A stretch of 64,000 nt of DNA from Curvibacter sp. (lineage in GTDB: Bacteria > Pseudomonadota > Gammaproteobacteria > Burkholderiales > Burkholderiaceae_C). The notes beneath the pieces were generated by a model. It did not search any database, was not told the DNA's origin, and worked only from the letters and a program-made list of their open reading frames with translations. Shown piece by piece: positions 28,654 through 36,342 of this stretch (the stretch's first letter is position 1; each line of letters begins with the position of its first letter). The position numbers were made by a program, and so were the translations under genes. The DNA lies in NCBI GenBank assembly GCA_020248905.1, contig JADCGR010000018.1, positions 1-64,000 of the forward strand, written 5' to 3'.

Positions 28654-29114
28654 TTATTGGCCCCCGTTGCAATTTGCGCCGGCAGAGCCAGCCCGCAGAG
28701 TCCGGCGTAGGGTGGCGACGTAAGGGATGGGGCGGATGCGCTCGGAGGCGAGTCCGGCCGCGATGCAGATCGTCACGCCAGCGGCCACCGCGTCGAGAAT
28801 ATGGGCCGTCTCGCTATCGTTGGTTAACATCACGATGGGGCGCGGTGTATCGCGGGTGGCCATCACGACGTGCTCGGGTGCGTCACGCACGTCGCTATTC
28901 GCATCCACAATGACCGTGTCAGGCTGTAGTTGGGCCAGACGCTCGTTAAGGAAGACTTCGCCAGCAAGCGAGGCGACAAGGTTGAAGTCGTTTTCGAGCA
29001 GGCGCGCGAGCAGGCCGGGCGCTCGCGCATCCTGCTCGCGCGCCTGCTCATCACCCGGGTCGTTGAGGACCGGGGGTCCGAGGCGACCACGACGATGCGC
29101 AAGGCAACATTCAT
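28654..29114 (-). pseudogene. Truncated, frameshifted NasT/AmiR-type response regulator
   Basis: From ATG at 29114 the frame reads MNVALRIVVVASDP. A frameshift near 29072, in a GGGGG run, moves the homology to another frame: LLARLLENDFNLVASLAGEV, RLAQLQPDTVIVDANSD, HVVMATRDTPRPIVMLTNDS and GLASERIRPI. The RNA-binding ANTAR domain that should follow is missing; the reading ends in unrelated GSAGANCNGGQ. NasT-type proteins normally control nitrate assimilation by antitermination. It cannot function here. Confidence 0.8.
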
Positions 29115-29187
29115 GCGCTTCCCCCCTGCAAGCAGCGAACCATAATGCCTGCATCCGGGCCTGTCCCAGGCATGGGCTAAAATCTCA

Positions 29188-29296
29188 ACTGCTCCGGGGT
29201 GTTGTCGGCGTAGGTAGACAGCTGAGATGGTGGGCCAAAGGCCCTGGACCGAACCCGTGAACTTGACTCGGATCATGCCGACGTAAGAAGAGCTGT
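29188..29296 (+). ncRNA. TPP riboswitch (THI element)
   Basis: The conserved core is present in order. P1 pairs ACTGCTC (29188-29194) with GAGCTGT (29290-29296), one mismatch. P2 pairs GGGT (29197-29200) with ACCC (29253-29256). The pyrimidine-sensing GCTGAGA is at 29221-29227, a P3a-type hairpin GGGCC-AAA-GGCCC follows, then TGAACTTGA (consensus TGAACCTGA) at 29258-29266 and GGATCATGCCGACGTAAGAAG. It binds thiamine pyrophosphate and would switch off the operon starting at 29366. A TAAAAT sequence at 29178-29183 could be the -10 box. Confidence 0.9.
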
Positions 29297-29322
29297 CACG
29301 GAGGCCCTTAGCCCCTGCCACA

Positions 29323-29360
29323 CCTTTCGGAGCACGCGCCTAGGCGCACCCAAGGAAAGG
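29323..29360 (+). promoter_or_regulatory. Riboswitch expression platform: Shine-Dalgarno sequestering hairpin
   Basis: CCTTTC at 29323-29328 can pair with GAAAGG at 29355-29360, which is the ribosome binding site of the first gene (AAGGAAAGG, 5 bases before the GTG). The self-complementary GCGCCTAGGCGC lies inside the loop at 29336-29347. No T-rich terminator follows, so control of translation rather than termination is likely. Confidence 0.5.
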
Positions 29361-29365
29361 CAAGC

Positions 29366-30475
29366 GTGGCGCAGCCCCCCCACCCATTGACGCAGCAGAT
29401 CGCGGCAGATCCGGTTCCGGACCTGTTGGGGTTCATCGCGCGAGACGAAGCCAGCGAGGCGGACTTCAATGCCCTGGCCCTGCGTCTGTTCGCGCGCCAG
29501 TTCCAGTACAACCTCGCCTTCCAGAAGTTCTGCCAGCTGCGCGGCCGTACGCCGCGCAGCGTGAAGAGCTGGCGCGACATTCCCGCCGTGCCCATTAATG
29601 GCTTCAAGGACCTCACGCTGAGCTGTGTGCCCACCAGCGATTGCGAACGCGTCTTCCAGACCAGCGGCACCACGCGCGGCGACGTCAAGGGTCGGCACTG
29701 GCATCCGGACCTGCGGGTCTACGACCTGTCGATGACGCGCAACTTCCGCCAGCGCTTCATGGCTGGCCGCGCAAGCATGCGCATGGGCATTCTGTTCCCA
29801 GACGAGCAGCTCATGCCCAACTCCTCGCTCGCGCATTACCTCGCCCTGGCCCTGCAACGCTTTGGCACGCCCGACAGCCGCTACTTCCTCGACGGCACGG
29901 GACTGCAGCTCGACGCGCTGTGCGCCATGCTAGCGCAGGGGCAGCAAAGCGGCGAGCCAATGGCCCTGCTGGGCGCGAGCTACAGCTTTGTGCACCTGAT
30001 GGACGCGCTGCAGGCGCGGGGCCTGCGCTTTGCGTTGCCGCGCGGAAGTCGATTGTTGGATACCGGCGGCTTCAAGGGTCAGTCGCGCGAGATGGACATG
30101 GAGGAGTTCTACGCCACGCTGTCCACCGCCCTGGGTGTGCCGCGCAGCGCATGCATCAATATGTACGGCATGACCGAGCTCAGCACCCAGTTCTACGACG
30201 ACGGCAACCCCGTGCTGCCAGCCGTGAAGTCGGGCCCGCACTGGATCCGTTCCCGCGTGCTGGAGCCGATCACGGGCCAGGAAGTCCCGGCCGGCGAGCG
30301 CGGCATTCTGGCCCACACCGATCTCGGCAATTACAACTCGGTCACCACCATCCTGACCGAGGACGTGGGCGTGGAAGTGGAGGGTGGCTTCCTGCTGCTG
30401 GGCCGAGCCCAGGGTGCGCAGGCCAAGGGCTGCTCGCTCGCGGTGGATGAATTCCTGAAAGTGGCACGCGCATGA
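29366..30475 (+). CDS. LuxE-like acyl-protein synthetase, TPP-regulated operon
   Basis: The 369-residue protein belongs to the LuxE family, which activates a carboxylic acid with ATP and carries it as an enzyme thioester. The ATP-binding loop FQTSGTTRGD is near residue 96, MYGMTELSTQFYD near 265, and a C-terminal KGCSL with Cys356 matches the acyl-accepting Cys region of LuxE. The start is GTG with a strong AAGGAAAGG ribosome binding site. Its stop overlaps the luxC-like start by 4 bases. No luciferase genes are present, so light production is excluded. The acid substrate is unknown; the riboswitch points to a thiamine-related compound. Confidence 0.85.
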   Translation: MAQPPHPLTQQIAADPVPDLLGFIARDEASEADFNALALRLFARQFQYNLAFQKFCQLRGRTPRSVKSWRDIPAVPINGFKDLTLSCVPTSDCERVFQTSGTTRGDVKGRHWHPDLRVYDLSMTRNFRQRFMAGRASMRMGILFPDEQLMPNSSLAHYLALALQRFGTPDSRYFLDGTGLQLDALCAMLAQGQQSGEPMALLGASYSFVHLMDALQARGLRFALPRGSRLLDTGGFKGQSREMDMEEFYATLSTALGVPRSACINMYGMTELSTQFYDDGNPVLPAVKSGPHWIRSRVLEPITGQEVPAGERGILAHTDLGNYNSVTTILTEDVGVEVEGGFLLLGRAQGAQAKGCSLAVDEFLKVARA

Positions 30476-31923
30476 AGGCCATCGCGGGCTACCTGCCGCT
30501 GCCCAATGCAGCCGAGCTGCCGTGGCACACGCTGACGTTTGGTGAGGGCGCGCAGCGTGTCGAGGTGAGCGTGCCCCAGATCACGCCGGCACAGCTTGCT
30601 GCACTGGCGCAGCGTGTGCGTGACCAGGGCGGCGCGCAGATCAGGTCCATGCCCTTGTCGCAGATCATCGCGGCCATCGACCGTGCCATTGAGCGTTTGC
30701 TCAAACCGGACGATCCCTATCGCGCCGAGCTTGACATCCTGCTGCCCCGCATCACCGGCTTTGACGCAGAGATGGTGCGCCTGGGCCTCAACGCCTATCT
30801 CAAGACTTTCCGTGCGCCGCAGCTGCAGCGTTTTGTAGCCGAGGACTTTGCCAATCCGAAGCTGCTTGACGAGTTCCAGCCCCGCCCCAAGGGTGGCATG
30901 GCGCGCGCGTTCGGCCCCGAATTGCTGGCGCATGTCTGGGCGGGCAATGTGCCCGGCCTGCCCTTGTGGAGCCTGGTCTGCGGCCTGCTGGTCAAGGCGC
31001 CATCTGTGGGCAAGGTGGCCAGTGCCGAGCCGATCGTCGCGTCGCTGTTTGCGCGCCTGCTCGCCGAGGTCGAGCCTCGGCTGGCTGAGGCGATAGCCAT
31101 CGTTTGGTTCAAGGGCGGTGATACGGTCAGTGAGCGTGCGCTCTTCGATGAGGCCGATGTGGTGCTCGCCTACGGGGGCAACGGCACACTGGCTGCGCTG
31201 CGCGCGCAGGTGCCCATCACCACGCGCTTCCTGCCGCACGGGCACAAGCTCAGCGTAGGGCTGGTCTCGGCCGCTGCGCTCGATGTGCAGCGGGTGCGAG
31301 CGGTAGCGCGGGCTGCCGCGCTGGACGTAGTGCGTTACGAGCAGCAGGGCTGCTATTCGCCGCATACCTTTTTCGTCGCCCGCAGCGGCCGCGTCACGCC
31401 GCGTGAGTTCGCGCAGGCGCTCGCCGGCGAGCTGGGCGCGCTGAAGGAGCAGTATCCCCGGCGGCCCCTCACGCTTGAGGAGTCAGCCAGTGTGGCGGCC
31501 TGGCGCCAGAGCCTGGAGTTCCGCGCACAGGACGGCGCCAGCGTCGAGCTGCTAGGTGACGCCCGGGCTCCCTGGGCGGTGGCCTATGCCGACGCGGCCG
31601 GGCCGCTACAGCCCGGGGCTCTGAACCGCACGGTGCAGGTGCAGGCGGTCGATGATCTGCACGGGGTGCTGCCCCTGCTGGCTGCTCAGCGCGATGTGCT
31701 GCAGACGGTGGGCGTGGCCGCCGCGCCGGCCGAGCTGCAGGCGCTCGCGGCAGGCCTGGGCGCGGCGGGCGCCACGCGCATCTGTGCCCTGGGCGCGATG
31801 ACGGCCCCCGAAGCCGGCTGGCATCACGACGGGCGCTTCTCTTTGCTGGACCTGGTGCGCATGGTGGAGTTGGAGCAGTCGGCCGAAGACGCGGCCGAGC
31901 ACTTTGCACCCTACCGGGACTGA
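30472..31923 (+). CDS. LuxC-like acyl reductase, TPP-regulated operon
   Basis: The 483-residue protein is a LuxC-family member of the aldehyde dehydrogenase superfamily. It reduces an activated acyl group to an aldehyde with NAD(P)H. The catalytic Cys294 lies in EQQGCYSPHTFFV; ALLAHVWAGNVPGLPLWSL-type and RFLPHGHKLSVGL segments match the family. The start lies within an ATGA overlap with the LuxE-like gene, the partner that would supply the acyl thioester. Length is normal. Confidence 0.87.
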   Translation: MKAIAGYLPLPNAAELPWHTLTFGEGAQRVEVSVPQITPAQLAALAQRVRDQGGAQIRSMPLSQIIAAIDRAIERLLKPDDPYRAELDILLPRITGFDAEMVRLGLNAYLKTFRAPQLQRFVAEDFANPKLLDEFQPRPKGGMARAFGPELLAHVWAGNVPGLPLWSLVCGLLVKAPSVGKVASAEPIVASLFARLLAEVEPRLAEAIAIVWFKGGDTVSERALFDEADVVLAYGGNGTLAALRAQVPITTRFLPHGHKLSVGLVSAAALDVQRVRAVARAAALDVVRYEQQGCYSPHTFFVARSGRVTPREFAQALAGELGALKEQYPRRPLTLEESASVAAWRQSLEFRAQDGASVELLGDARAPWAVAYADAAGPLQPGALNRTVQVQAVDDLHGVLPLLAAQRDVLQTVGVAAAPAELQALAAGLGAAGATRICALGAMTAPEAGWHHDGRFSLLDLVRMVELEQSAEDAAEHFAPYRD

Positions 31924-31935
31924 AAGGGCACGGAG

Positions 31936-32688
31936 ATGAAAGCGGCGTCCTTTCTCGACATGCGCCAGGTCAGCTACACCTTCCCTGGCTGGCCGCCAGT
32001 GGTGCAGGGGGTGGACTGGAACATCGCGCCCGGTGAGTTCCATTGCCTCGTGGGCCGCAGCGGCTGCGGCAAGACTACGCTGCTCAAGCTGGCGGCGGGA
32101 CTGTTGCGCCCGGACCTAGGCGTCGTACTGCTTCAGGGCCAGCCTCTGCCAGCGCCCGGGCCGCACATCGGCTTTGTCTTCCAGCAACCCACCTTGCTGG
32201 ACTGGCTGAGCGTGCTCGACAACGTGCTGCTGCCCCTGAGCCTGCAGTCGGCCCCCGGCTCGCAAGACCGCGAGCGGGCCATCCAGCTGCTGCAACAGCT
32301 GGGCCTGGGCGCGCGTCTGGCGCACCGGCCTCGCCAGCTCTCGGGCGGACAGCAGAGCCGCGTGGCCATTGCGCGCGCGCTGCTGCCCGAGCCTTCCATC
32401 CTGCTCATGGACGAGCCCTTTGCCGCGCTGGACGCGATCACGCGCGAGGAACTGCAGGACGCGCTGCTGGCGGTCTGCCGCGAGCGTGGCACGCCGGTGT
32501 TTTTTGTCACGCACGACATCACGGAGGCCGTGTACCTGGCCGACCGCGTTGCCGTGATGGAGGCGGGCCGCATCCGCCATGAGGTTGGTGTGGACTTGCC
32601 GCGCCCGCGCGAGCGGGACATACGCTACAGCCCGGCCTTCAACGCGCTGTGCGCCGAACTGCGCCACGCCATGGATGCCTTGCCATGA
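31936..32688 (+). CDS. ABC transporter ATP-binding protein (SsuB/TauB/ThiZ-like)
   Basis: The 250-residue ATPase has Walker A GRSGCGKTT near residue 40, Q-loop FVFQQPTLLDW, signature LSGGQQSR, Walker B ILLMDEPFAALD and the switch His in FVTHDITEA. It belongs to the nitrate/sulfonate/taurine/pyrimidine importer group. The gene lies 12 bases after the luxC-like gene with a CACGGAG ribosome binding site, and its stop overlaps the permease start (ATGA). With the binding protein and the riboswitch, a thiamine-precursor importer is the likely role. Confidence 0.9.
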   Translation: MKAASFLDMRQVSYTFPGWPPVVQGVDWNIAPGEFHCLVGRSGCGKTTLLKLAAGLLRPDLGVVLLQGQPLPAPGPHIGFVFQQPTLLDWLSVLDNVLLPLSLQSAPGSQDRERAIQLLQQLGLGARLAHRPRQLSGGQQSRVAIARALLPEPSILLMDEPFAALDAITREELQDALLAVCRERGTPVFFVTHDITEAVYLADRVAVMEAGRIRHEVGVDLPRPRERDIRYSPAFNALCAELRHAMDALP

Positions 32689-33431
32689 CGTCACCGCGCC
32701 TTGTGGCCCTGGGTCTGTTCCTGCTGCTGCTCGCCGCCTGGGAGGCTGCGGTACCGGCCCTGGGCTTTTCCAACCTGGTGCTGCCGGCACCCAGTGTGAT
32801 CGGCGTGGCCCTCTGGCGCGGCCTGGCCACGGGCTATCTGTGGCCGCACATTGCCCAGACCTTGCTGGAACTGGGTCTGGGTCTGGGGCTGGGCGTGCTC
32901 CTCGGCTTTGCAGGTGGCGTGCTGCTGGGCGAGTCGCCCGTGCTGCGGCGGGTGCTCATGCCCTATGTCGTAACCAGCCAGGTGGTGCCCAAGCTGGCTC
33001 TGGTGCCGCTCTTCATCGTCTGGTTCGGCTTTGGCACCACGCCCACGGTGGTCATCACGGCGCTCATCTGCTTCTTCCCGCTGCTGGAAAACACGCTGAC
33101 CGGCATCGCCCAGACGGACCCCGCGCGGCTGGAACTCTTTCGCATGCTAGGCGCGACCCGTTCGCAGACACTGTGGCGGCTCAGGGTGCCTGCGGGCCTG
33201 CCGGCCATCCTGGCTGGCCTGCGCGTGGCCGTGGTGCTGGCCCTGGTGGGCGCGGTGGTGGGGGAGTTCATCGGCGCCAGCAAGGGCCTGGGGGCACTCA
33301 TCATCGCCGCGCAGGGCTCCATGGACACGCCACTCATGTTTGCCGTGCTGCTGGTGATCACCGTCATCGGTCTTCTGCTTTACGAGGCCACGCTGCTGCT
33401 GGAACGCCGGCTGCTGCGGGCCTACACCTGA
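32685..33431 (+). CDS. ABC transporter permease (SsuC/ThiX-like)
   Basis: The 248-residue protein has six membrane segments. The cytoplasmic EAA-like loop (LFRMLGATRSQTLWRLRVPAGLPAILAGLR) contacts the ATPase. It belongs to the binding-protein-dependent permeases of the nitrate/sulfonate/taurine/FAPy class. ATG at 32685 overlaps the ATPase stop, so the start is firm. Confidence 0.9.
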   Translation: MTSPRLVALGLFLLLLAAWEAAVPALGFSNLVLPAPSVIGVALWRGLATGYLWPHIAQTLLELGLGLGLGVLLGFAGGVLLGESPVLRRVLMPYVVTSQVVPKLALVPLFIVWFGFGTTPTVVITALICFFPLLENTLTGIAQTDPARLELFRMLGATRSQTLWRLRVPAGLPAILAGLRVAVVLALVGAVVGEFIGASKGLGALIIAAQGSMDTPLMFAVLLVITVIGLLLYEATLLLERRLLRAYT

Positions 33432-33464
33432 CCTATTTCTTTTCAGTTCAACGAGGACCTCACC

Positions 33465-34463
33465 ATGAAACGCAATTTCCTGCGCACCCTGCTGGCCTGC
33501 ACCGTGGCGGGCCTGACCGCCACGGCCGGCACGGCCTGGGCCCAGGCCAAACTCGACAAGGTCACCGTGGCCAGCTGGGGCCGCGCGATCAGCGAGGTCA
33601 CCAATCTGCTGGTGGAAGAAGAAAAAGGCTTCTTCCGCGCGCGCGGCATCGAGTTGGTCTACCTGCCCGGCGCCGGTGGCGGCGACGCCGTGCGCAACCT
33701 GCTGAGCGGGCAGGGCGACGTGGCCTTCACCGATCCCGGCTCTTTCTACATCGCGTTGGACAAGGGTGAAAAGCTGCGCGCCATCTACGACGTCTACCCG
33801 CAGAACATCTTCAACGTGGTGGCGCTGAAGTCCAGTGGCATCAGCAAGCCGGCCGACCTCAAGGGCAAGAAAATTGGTGTCTATAGCCTGTCCAGCGGAA
33901 CGCGCACCAGTCTGCAGGTGCTGCTGCACGGTGCTGGCCTGTCCGAGAAGGATGTAACGCTCGTGCCCACCGGGCTGCTGAACTTCGCGCCGCTCATGCA
34001 GGGGCAGGTGGACGCCTCCGCTGCCACTGACACCGGTCTGCTCGTGGCGCGTGCGCGCGGCGTGGGCGAGGTCAACGTGATGGAGGCGCGCGACTCGCTC
34101 AATATGTCGAGCGACCTCTTCGTCGTACGCGAGGAAACCTGGCAGCAGCGCAAGGATGTGCTGCGCCGCTTTCTTGCCGCCTACCGCGACAGCGCGCAGT
34201 GGATGATCGACAACCCGCAGGAAGCGGCCCGGCTGGCCGTCAAGCGTGCCATCGACGGTCAGAACGAAGCCGTCAACCTTGAAGTCATCAAGCTGCGCAA
34301 TGCCTCCAGCGTCTCGCCGTTGACCCGCAAGGAGGGCCTGGGCGCCATTGACATCGACGCACTGCAAAAAGGCGCAGACACCTGGAAGAAGATCGGCCTG
34401 ATCCAGAACGATCTGCGCATGAGGGATGTGGTCAGCGGCGAGTTGCTGCCGGGGCGCAAGTAA
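33465..34463 (+). CDS. NMT1/THI5-type periplasmic binding protein (ThiY-like)
   Basis: The 332-residue protein has a signal peptide ending in AWAQA near residue 27, then the NMT1/SsuA-type fold: SWGRAISEVTNLLVEEEKGFF, a GAGGGDAVRNLLSGQGDVAFTDPG loop and DLKGKKIGVYSLSSGTRTSL. This class binds taurine, sulfonates, nitrate or thiamine pyrimidines. The TPP riboswitch upstream favours a thiamine-related ligand. The gene follows the permease by 33 bases. The ligand residues cannot be confirmed by eye. Confidence 0.87.
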   Translation: MKRNFLRTLLACTVAGLTATAGTAWAQAKLDKVTVASWGRAISEVTNLLVEEEKGFFRARGIELVYLPGAGGGDAVRNLLSGQGDVAFTDPGSFYIALDKGEKLRAIYDVYPQNIFNVVALKSSGISKPADLKGKKIGVYSLSSGTRTSLQVLLHGAGLSEKDVTLVPTGLLNFAPLMQGQVDASAATDTGLLVARARGVGEVNVMEARDSLNMSSDLFVVREETWQQRKDVLRRFLAAYRDSAQWMIDNPQEAARLAVKRAIDGQNEAVNLEVIKLRNASSVSPLTRKEGLGAIDIDALQKGADTWKKIGLIQNDLRMRDVVSGELLPGRK

Positions 34464-34465
34464 TC

Positions 34466-35245
34466 ATGAGCTTCCACGGTAAGGTCATCCTCGTCACCGG
34501 CGCCAGCCGCGGCATCGGTGCGGCGATTGCGCGTGCCTTCGCGGCTGAAGGCGGCTTTGTGGTCGTCAACTATCTTGGCAACGACGCCGCGGCCGAGGCC
34601 GTGGTGGCTGACTGCAAGGCCGCCGGGGCTGCTAAGGGCGGCGATGCCTGGGCCATCCGCGCCGACGTGACGGACGAGGCCCAGGTCCAGGCCCTGGCGG
34701 CGCAGGTGCAGGCCGAGCTCGGCCGTATCGACGTGCTGGTGAACAACGCTTTCGCGCCCTATCGCTTCGACCCCGAGCAGCGCAAGCGTTTCTGGGAGAC
34801 CGGCTGGGCCGATTACCTGGCGCAGTTCGACGGTGCCGTGCAGGCGACTTTCAACGTGTGTCAGGCTGTGCTGCCTGGCATGCGCCAGCGCGCGCAGGGC
34901 TGCATCGTGAACCTGGTGTCCGACCTGATCGAGCGGCCCGTGGTGCCCTACCACGATTACACGACCGCCAAGTCCGCCCTGGTGGGCTTCAGCCGCAATC
35001 TCGCGGCGGAGCTGGGGCCACTGGGCATCCGCGTCAACTGCGTGGCGCCAGGTTTGGTCTATCCAACGCACGCGAGCCGCGCCACCAAGGAGGACGTGAA
35101 AGAGGCCATCGTCGCGCAGACGCCCTTGCGCCGCATCGCGCGGCCCGAGGATGTGGCAGGGCCGGTGCTGTTTCTGGCCTCGGACTGGAGCCGCTTCGTC
35201 ACGGGGCAGACGCTGGTCGTCGACGGCGGCCTCGTGATGAAGTGA
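34466..35245 (+). CDS. SDR-family oxidoreductase closing the TPP-regulated operon
   Basis: The 259-residue protein has the classical SDR pattern: TGASRGIGAAIA for NAD(P) binding, NNAFAP in place of the usual NNAG, catalytic Ser in NLVSD, and Tyr/Lys in YHDYTTAKSAL. A DGGLVMK end is present. It resembles 3-oxoacyl-ACP reductases by sequence, but its place in the operon suggests aldehyde/alcohol interconversion of the LuxC product. It starts 2 bases after the binding-protein stop. tsaD follows 17 bases later. Confidence 0.85.
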   Translation: MSFHGKVILVTGASRGIGAAIARAFAAEGGFVVVNYLGNDAAAEAVVADCKAAGAAKGGDAWAIRADVTDEAQVQALAAQVQAELGRIDVLVNNAFAPYRFDPEQRKRFWETGWADYLAQFDGAVQATFNVCQAVLPGMRQRAQGCIVNLVSDLIERPVVPYHDYTTAKSALVGFSRNLAAELGPLGIRVNCVAPGLVYPTHASRATKEDVKEAIVAQTPLRRIARPEDVAGPVLFLASDWSRFVTGQTLVVDGGLVMK

Positions 35246-35262: not shown

Positions 35263-36342
35263 ATGTCTGACACCGCGCCGCTCATTCTCGGCATCGAATC
35301 CTCCTGCGATGAGACGGGCGTGGCCCTGGTGCAGACCCGTGAGGGCGAGCTTCCAGTCCTGCTCTCCCACGCGCTGTACAGCCAGATCGAGATGCACCAG
35401 GCCTATGGTGGTGTGGTGCCCGAGCTTGCCAGCCGTGACCATATCCGCCGGGTGCTGCCACTCACCCAAACCGTCATGGCCGAAGCTGGCAAGACACTGA
35501 AGAACATCGACGTGGTGGCCTACACGCGCGGCCCCGGCCTGGCTGGTGCGCTGCTGGTGGGCGCGGGCGTGGCTTGCGCCCTGGGCGCTGCGTTGGGCAA
35601 GCCCGTGCTGGGCGTACACCACCTTGAAGGGCACCTGCTTTCGCCCTTTCTCAGTGCCGATCCGCCTGAGTTTCCCTTCGTGGCCCTGCTCGTCTCCGGC
35701 GGCCACACCCAGCTCATGCGGGTGGACGGGGTGGGTCGCTACGAGATGCTGGGCGAGACCATCGACGACGCTGCGGGCGAAGCCTTCGACAAGTCCGCCA
35801 AGCTCCTGGGGCTGGCTTATCCGGGTGGCCCGCTGCTGGCGAGGCTGGCGGAGCAGGGCGACGGTGCGGCCTACAAGCTGCCGCGCCCGCTGCTGCACAG
35901 CGGCAACCTCGATTTTTCGTTTGCCGGCCTCAAGACGGCGGTGCTTACACAGGTGCAGAAGATATCTGCCGTTCGGGCTGAGCCTGTCGAAGCTTGGCCC
36001 TCGACTTTGCGCGCCGATCTGGCCGCCTCCACGCAGGCCGCCATTATTGAAGTACTGGTGAAGAAATCACTCGCCGCGCTAGAGCTGACCGGCATGAAGC
36101 GCCTGGTCGTGGCCGGCGGCGTCGGTGCCAACAAGCTGCTGCGTGAGCAGCTCAACGCCGCCTGCGCGACACGCAGGGTGCACGTGCACTACCCCGAGCC
36201 GCACCTGTGCACCGACAACGGCGCCATGATCGCCATGGCCGCCGCCATGCGCCTTCAGGCCGGCCAGCAGGAAGCGGCGCGCGCCTATACCTTTGAAGTG
36301 AAGCCGCGCTGGCCGCTGGATGCGATCAGTCAGGCGGTGTGA
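35263..36342 (+). CDS. tsaD: tRNA t6A37 threonylcarbamoyltransferase TsaD
   Basis: The 359-residue protein has the Kae1/TsaD motifs: [27 protein letters not shown], metal ligands in [32 protein letters not shown] and a late [10 protein letters not shown]. It transfers threonylcarbamoyl to A37 of ANN-decoding tRNAs with TsaB and TsaE and is essential in most bacteria. A dispersed repeat is inserted in frame at residues 236-245, adding [10 protein letters not shown] to a surface loop between LKTAVLTQ and RADLAAS. Confidence 0.96.
35969..35995 (+). repeat. Dispersed repeat inserted in frame within tsaD
   Basis: The sequence CCGTTCGGGCTGAGCCTGTC and the following GAAGCTT match the REP-like unit, TTCGACAGGCTCAG on the other strand, that is scattered in many proteobacterial genomes. 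Here it lies inside tsaD and is translated as VRAEPVEA. Confidence 0.75.

Follow-up and report, generated by a model that had tools for sequence, protein, structure and literature searches.

A riboswitch-led operon with LuxE-like and LuxC-like enzymes as a probable salvage route for the pyrimidine half of thiamine

A stretch of 64,000 nucleotides from Curvibacter sp. (assembly GCA_020248905.1, contig JADCGR010000018.1, positions 1 to 64,000; here called the window) carries a thiamine pyrophosphate (TPP) riboswitch, downstream of which lie six tightly packed genes that end at position 35245. An earlier note on this DNA had described the switch as well formed and had assigned the genes to a LuxE-like acid-activating enzyme, a LuxC-like acyl reductase, a full ATP-binding cassette (ABC) importer with an NMT1-type binding protein, and a short-chain dehydrogenase/reductase (SDR). 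The switch scores just below its Rfam threshold, and all of the protein families were matched in our searches, which gave the following features:

29185..29306, + strand: TPP riboswitch aptamer (THI element); RF00059, 53.8 bits (gathering score 54.3), E 9.1e-10
29366..30475, + strand: LuxE-like acid-activating enzyme; PF04443, 67.6 bits (cut-off 24.9); LuxE of 7xc6, E 1.5e-16
30472..31923, + strand: LuxC-like acyl reductase; PF05893, 288.7 bits (cut-off 21); LuxC of 7xc6, E 2.9e-18
31936..32688, + strand: ABC importer ATPase; PF00005, 112.1 bits
32685..33431, + strand: ABC importer permease; PF00528, 112.1 bits; open reading frame listed from 32649
33465..34463, + strand: NMT1/THI5-type substrate-binding protein; PF09084, 166.5 bits; predicted fold nearest to 4nmy and 3ix1
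34466..35245, + strand: SDR; PF13561, 208.2 bits

The luxC start lies inside the luxE stop, and the probable permease ATG at 32685, which overlaps the ATPase stop and appears likelier to be the start than 32649, continues this pattern of coupled operons. Upstream of them, the RF00059 match spans the full model (positions 1-105), and a search of the whole genome finds the same site. The covariance model that was proposed as a check on the leader thus does score it, 0.5 bit below the cut-off, and because of this half bit a default Rfam scan has no entry at the window leader. Orthologous leaders of the same operon exceed the gathering score (57.8 bits in G011, 57.7 in G025, and 58.9 in G010, the top RF00059 score among the luxE leaders of the genus members), as do further operon leaders (67.6 bits in L204 and 66.6 in L208). 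Matches to microRNA families near position 29000 lay below their cut-offs and were taken as chance.

Switch and gene order are conserved far beyond the window. A scan of named genomes yielded 371 relatives, of which the best 80 were kept for comparison. All six genes keep their order in 69 of these 80 loci; nine of the other 11 run off their contig, and two (L165 and L181) are without a recognisable ATPase gene. For the leaders we used a model (R1) made from 19 TPP leaders, all taken from thiC or thiO operons and none from a lux operon; it holds only 12 base pairs because thiC-type and thiO-type leaders align poorly. This model places a TPP switch 5′ of the operon in 77/80 loci, a count in which the match of L151 is truncated by the contig start and in which L169 and L180, weak with R1 (E 0.0017 and 0.015), are included on their Rfam scores of 63.6 and 52.9 bits. 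An extra match in L160 (E 0.29) was discarded, and at the three loci without a match (L152, L162, L166) the contigs begin within 4, 41 and 209 bases of the luxE match. With Rfam, an upstream TPP switch is found in 20 out of 20 genomes chosen for spread, in one of which (L164) thiD lies between switch and luxE. Hence the earlier concern that homologous operons might mostly lack the switch is met by the opposite observation. Within the genus, a LuxE ortholog is present in 21/26 genomes, and a TPP match lies just 5′ of luxE in 20 of these 21, the match of G006 being partial (34.3 bits at the contig start); in the last one, G022, the contig begins within luxE itself. A clustering of neighbouring genes was swamped by shadow reading frames and served as a pointer only.

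The residues expected of the enzymes are conserved as well. The LuxE-like and LuxC-like proteins are homologous to the acid-activating and acid-reducing pair of the luciferase fatty acid reductase (7xc6), and they keep its aligned cysteines, which we take to be the acyl-carrying residues: Cys356 of LuxE is found in 84/84 and Cys294 of LuxC in 85/85 aligned relatives. The SDR has Tyr165 and Lys169 in all 77 aligned relatives, with serine (64) or threonine (13) at position 152. It could be argued from the Pfam LuxE and LuxC domains, and from the annotation of long-chain fatty acid--CoA ligase in PLSDB, that the operon encodes a reductase for fatty acids or an unrelated acid and that its TPP control is fortuitous. 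We find this hard to credit, since the LuxE-like protein reaches 60.2 bits against the equivalog cut-off of 550 of NF052244 (long-chain-fatty-acid--protein ligase LuxE) and the LuxC-like protein 86.3 bits against 750 of NF052251 (long-chain-fatty-acyl-CoA reductase LuxC), and since the TPP switch is constant and the operon is linked to thi genes and to ThiY-like or nucleobase transporters. The genomic context also differs from that of the luciferase system, in that a TPP switch, a thiamine-type transporter and an SDR accompany the pair here (luxA, luxB and luxD were not searched for). The predicted structure of the LuxE-like protein (pLDDT, a model confidence score, 90.4) is nearest to PaaK-type aryl-acid ligases among the 50 matches listed, with LuxE of 7xc6 not among these, and this aryl-acid-ligase-like fold does no more than hint that the substrate may be aromatic.

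The thiamine genes of the host narrow down what such a reductase might be needed for. The window genome (completeness 99.87%) has ThiG, ThiO, ThiD and ThiE, encoded in a thiO-thiS-thiG-thiE cluster plus thiD, where thiS is a frame of 65 residues ending in GG that was read by eye. However, neither ThiC, the known bacterial pyrimidine synthase, nor TenA was found in this 99.87% complete genome. The thiazole half of the vitamin can therefore be made, whereas the known synthase for the pyrimidine half is missing. Two TPP switches were found in total, one 5′ of the lux operon and one 5′ of the thiO cluster. The second (L104:4763-5803, on contig C35 of the window genome) lies about 0.9 kb 5′ of thiO with an opposite-strand thiD in between, and a leader made from it would be antisense to thiD; in L143 to L145, the second switch instead sits between thiD and thiO.

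We therefore favour, at a probability of roughly 70%, the interpretation that this is a TPP-switched salvage operon for the thiamine pyrimidine, which imports an acid and reduces it by means of LuxE, LuxC and SDR to 4-amino-5-hydroxymethyl-2-methylpyrimidine (HMP). We deduce the ligand and the three reactions, as well as the direction of regulation, from the chemistry of the enzyme families and from the riboswitch family. At low TPP, the leader would permit expression of the operon, and the ABC importer, served by a binding protein of ThiY/THI5-like type, would bring in an oxidised pyrimidine, most simply 4-amino-2-methylpyrimidine-5-carboxylate, a mammalian metabolite of thiamine, or a close relative. 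The LuxE-like enzyme would adenylate the acid with ATP and bind it to its Cys356 as a thioester; the acyl group would then pass to Cys294 of the LuxC-like enzyme and be reduced there to the aldehyde, which the SDR would convert to HMP. ThiD and ThiE would finally couple HMP to the thiazole from ThiO, ThiS and ThiG. The core idea of the earlier note, TPP-controlled import and ATP-driven carboxylate reduction of a thiamine precursor, thus remains the best-supported reading. It is conceivable that the trio makes HMP from another pyrimidine acid or conjugate, imported or formed internally, given that the genome pattern and the thiD linkage described below indicate the pyrimidine half and leave the acid unnamed. 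We consider this unlikely, as the two reductions at C5, to the aldehyde and on to the alcohol, would lead from the 5-carboxylate to HMP and require nothing further.

The distribution of ThiC and ThiG across genomes is consistent with a pyrimidine target. Within the genus, 10/26 genomes lack ThiC and none lacks ThiG, and the operon is present in 9/10 ThiC-less versus 12/16 ThiC-bearing genomes. A sample of 160 genomes from the family, each at least 97% complete and scored for the operon by a LuxE match at E <= 1e-60, contained the operon in 15, ThiC in 110 and ThiG in 116 genomes. Here, the operon occurs in four of the eight genomes that lack ThiC and keep ThiG (one of the four, G199, with 8% contamination) versus 11/108 that have both, and in none of those that lack ThiG, be it with ThiC (0/2) or without it (0/42). 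The operon is thus tied to the absence of ThiC with ThiG retained, not to the absence of ThiC per se. We also gathered 50 operon-bearing genomes (of 59 sought) from the named loci, comprising 30 isolates and 20 metagenome-assembled genomes (MAGs), at least four of which, judging by gene coordinates, are also in the family sample. All 50 have ThiG, while ThiC is absent from 19 of them and from 8/30 isolates. The combination of missing ThiC and present ThiG is hence far commoner with the operon (19/50) than in the 145 operon-free family genomes (4/145, Fisher p 1.2e-9; isolates only, 8/30, p 9.5e-5), although these tests take each genome as an independent case and compare unmatched groups, the 50 spanning Alcaligenaceae and Bacillota and the 145 coming from one family. 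Both ThiC and ThiG are missing from 42 of the 145. Mapped on a LuxE tree of 69 rows, the ThiC label has to change state 10 times, and well-supported branches force at least 9 of these changes; the pattern is therefore not due to a single event, with gaps in MAGs contributing to the count. A role of the operon as a general replacement for ThiC was rejected, given ThiC in 31 of the 50 and an operon frequency in the family of 4/50 without and 11/110 with ThiC. Rather, it is probably a main source of the pyrimidine in hosts without ThiC, including the window genome, and a supplement in hosts that keep ThiC.

Linkage to other thi genes points in the same direction. Such genes lie within the examined flanks in 23/80 loci. 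In 12 of the 80, ten of them named Ramlibacter, thiD lies directly 5′ of luxE on the same strand, and wherever upstream sequence is available (11 loci), the TPP switch precedes thiD. The ThiD of L164 reaches 316 bits, above the HMP-P kinase cut-off of 205. A thiE-like gene follows the SDR gene in nine of the 12 loci (with Pfam confirmation in L164 and L177), and thiO, thiG and thiE are found downstream in ten other loci. As ThiD acts on HMP, the pyrimidine alcohol, the linkage is consistent with HMP being the trio's predicted product.

The importer is less constant. For the window, the model of the binding protein (pLDDT 91.3) has as its nearest folds thiamine-bound 4nmy and 3ix1, which binds N-formyl-4-amino-5-aminomethyl-2-methylpyrimidine (FAMP), followed by 3qsl and yeast THI5. 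The NMT1 domain (166.5 bits with PF09084) thus goes together with a ThiY fold, 3ix1 being the second-best match with a TM-score of 0.77 normalised to query length. On plasmids, of which six of 27 records were examined, other arrangements appear. On two lactobacillus plasmids the operon has no ABC genes: its TPP switch (67.6 bits) is followed by an NCS2 nucleobase permease and then by LuxE, LuxC and SDR; NCS2 permeases transport nucleobases. These plasmids are small (10.3 and 21.2 kb, operons at L204:1390-6321 and L205:2947-7878), and although they come from two genera, their operons are alike at all but 2 of 4932 positions; judging from these sequences, the operon there is a putative mobile vitamin-salvage cassette of food bacteria. 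A Niallia megaplasmid (L207:6754-8974) has two tandem TPP switches followed by ThiW, a predicted thiazole transporter, and by an NCS2 permease, LuxE, LuxC and SDR. On a Pantoea plasmid, the switch is accompanied by LuxE, LuxC and SDR, and no transporter gene adjoins them directly; plasmids of Priestia and Azospirillum have the switch (49.0 and 59.6 bits) and all six genes. A seventh plasmid, from Pseudomonas, gave a partial LuxE match only. The switch and the enzyme trio are thus the constant part and the importer the variable one, in a range that covers Burkholderiales, Azospirillum, Pantoea and Bacillota including lactobacilli, and is partly plasmid-borne. Contamination as the origin of the Bacillota copies is made unlikely by the switches before the L169 and L180 operons, by the full operon on the Priestia plasmid, and by a similar GC content of the operon and its flanks, of 0.51 versus 0.49 (L169) and 0.46 versus 0.39-0.41 (L180).

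Which half of thiamine is the target was left open by the earlier note, which had named two examples, a carboxylate of the pyrimidine and an acetate of the thiazole. Of these two, the first is the better supported. In a thiazole route, 4-methylthiazole-5-acetate would be imported and reduced to hydroxyethylthiazole (HET), for which the chemistry fits equally well and to which ThiW in the Niallia operon would be suited. Yet ThiG is kept in 50/50 operon-bearing genomes, in 26/26 genomes of the genus (5 of these 26 being operon-free) and in 15/15 operon-bearers of the family sample, while ThiC is often missing. Furthermore, the linked kinase that was found is thiD and not the HET kinase (thiM was not searched for), and NCS2 permeases carry nucleobases, such that we regard a thiazole route as improbable. 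Repair of the whole vitamin, with thiamine acetic acid being imported and reduced straight to thiamine, is more doubtful still. Its substrate is a known thiamine metabolite in the rat, according to the title of a reference in PMC7575681, and the nearest fold of the binding protein is thiamine-bound. However, ThiC-less hosts would then have no need of ThiG, which all examined operon-bearers keep, and thiD is part of the operon in 12 loci. Since no operon-bearing genome examined lacks ThiG, we rejected both the thiazole-acetate target and whole-thiamine repair as main readings. The pattern of genes thus favours the pyrimidine, with ThiC missing from 19/50 and ThiG from 0/50 genomes, thiD 5′ of luxE, and an NCS2 permease in place of the ABC importer.

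Several observations weigh against salvage of a pyrimidine acid as we propose it, to be added to the limits of the Fisher tests given above. The window switch lies just below the Rfam cut-off, and folding (z 0.47) and a terminator scan gave no usable expression platform. By itself, the contrast within the genus is not significant (p 0.34), with several of these genomes being incomplete MAGs, and 12 of the 21 operon-bearers of the genus keep ThiC, as do most operon-bearers at large (31/50). In the family sample, the operon is no commoner in ThiC-less genomes as such (4/50 versus 11/110). One genome of the genus, G016, lacks ThiC, TenA and the operon, yet it keeps ThiG and has one TPP switch; it must have another source of pyrimidine or be an auxotroph. 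As to the transporters, sulfonate binders follow close behind in the fold comparison of the binding protein, though its score with the SsuA-family sulfonate-binding profile TIGR01728 (109.7 bits) stays below the threshold of 163.5, and ThiW suggests that the Niallia operon also serves the uptake of thiazole.

In relation to known systems, one close likeness is to the salvage of FAMP by ThiY/ThiXYZ and TenA, which proceeds by deformylation and amine hydrolysis. Both would import a thiamine pyrimidine vitamer through an ABC transporter, and the binding-protein model is closest to the FAMP-binding 3ix1 and to thiamine-bound 4nmy. The route proposed here would instead activate and reduce an acid, and the window genome has no TenA. 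With ThiV of SAR11, the operon would share a TPP-controlled uptake of pyrimidine that permits life without ThiC, as described in PMC11452348 and PMC10881298; ThiV, in contrast, takes up HMP itself and has no reductase. Yeast HMP synthase THI5 shares the NMT1 fold with the binding protein of the operon. According to PMC10848271, THI5 acts as a single-turnover enzyme and forms the pyrimidine out of pyridoxal phosphate and histidine, whereas the operon protein is encoded beside ABC genes.

The earlier note knew of no described pathway of this kind, and in agreement with this, no published description of the operon was found in the literature searched, with RegPrecise, most subscription journals and the supplements of PMC3766115 outside its scope; an earlier annotation elsewhere is possible. 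The word "reductase" is absent from the main text of the riboswitch regulon survey PMC3766115, and the vitamin B1 gene list of PMC10881298 names no acid reductase in the part covered. We think it rather probable that bacteria of distant groups recover the thiamine pyrimidine from its carboxylate via LuxE, LuxC and SDR, with changing transporters and with ThiC repeatedly absent. If this is true, a function would be provided for a widespread group of genes whose database labels refer to fatty acids or bioluminescence, and an acid-reduction route would be added to known thiamine salvage. The supply of pyrimidine in many freshwater and soil bacteria that have ThiG and lack ThiC may thereby be explained, and calls of B1 auxotrophy based on ThiC, ThiY, ThiV, CytX and TenA would miss this route. 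The pyrimidine carboxylate would moreover be a measurable vitamer, a vitamin B1 currency of soils, waters and fermented foods that has so far gone unmeasured.

Some further observations concern the surroundings of the operon. On the same strand, 17 bases past the SDR gene, lies tsaD (PF00814, window 35263-36342, + strand), which might be co-transcribed from the TPP-switched operon. On the minus strand at 28654-29321, two overlapping frames resemble an ANTAR-type regulator by eye, and neither matches Pfam; they look like a decayed regulator gene, and an intact ANTAR-type regulator gene (PF03861) adjoins the operon in L122. The LuxC of the MAG G009 (L122:4194-5583) matches in two overlapping frames, which indicates a sequencing error or a broken gene. 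In G005, a gene for a TctC-type binding protein (PF03401, a family of carboxylate receptors; L120:8506-9603) is inserted between the binding-protein and SDR genes. Finally, the window genome encodes two distant LuxE-like paralogs, L024 on contig C16 and L025 on contig C35, with 25% and 27% identity.

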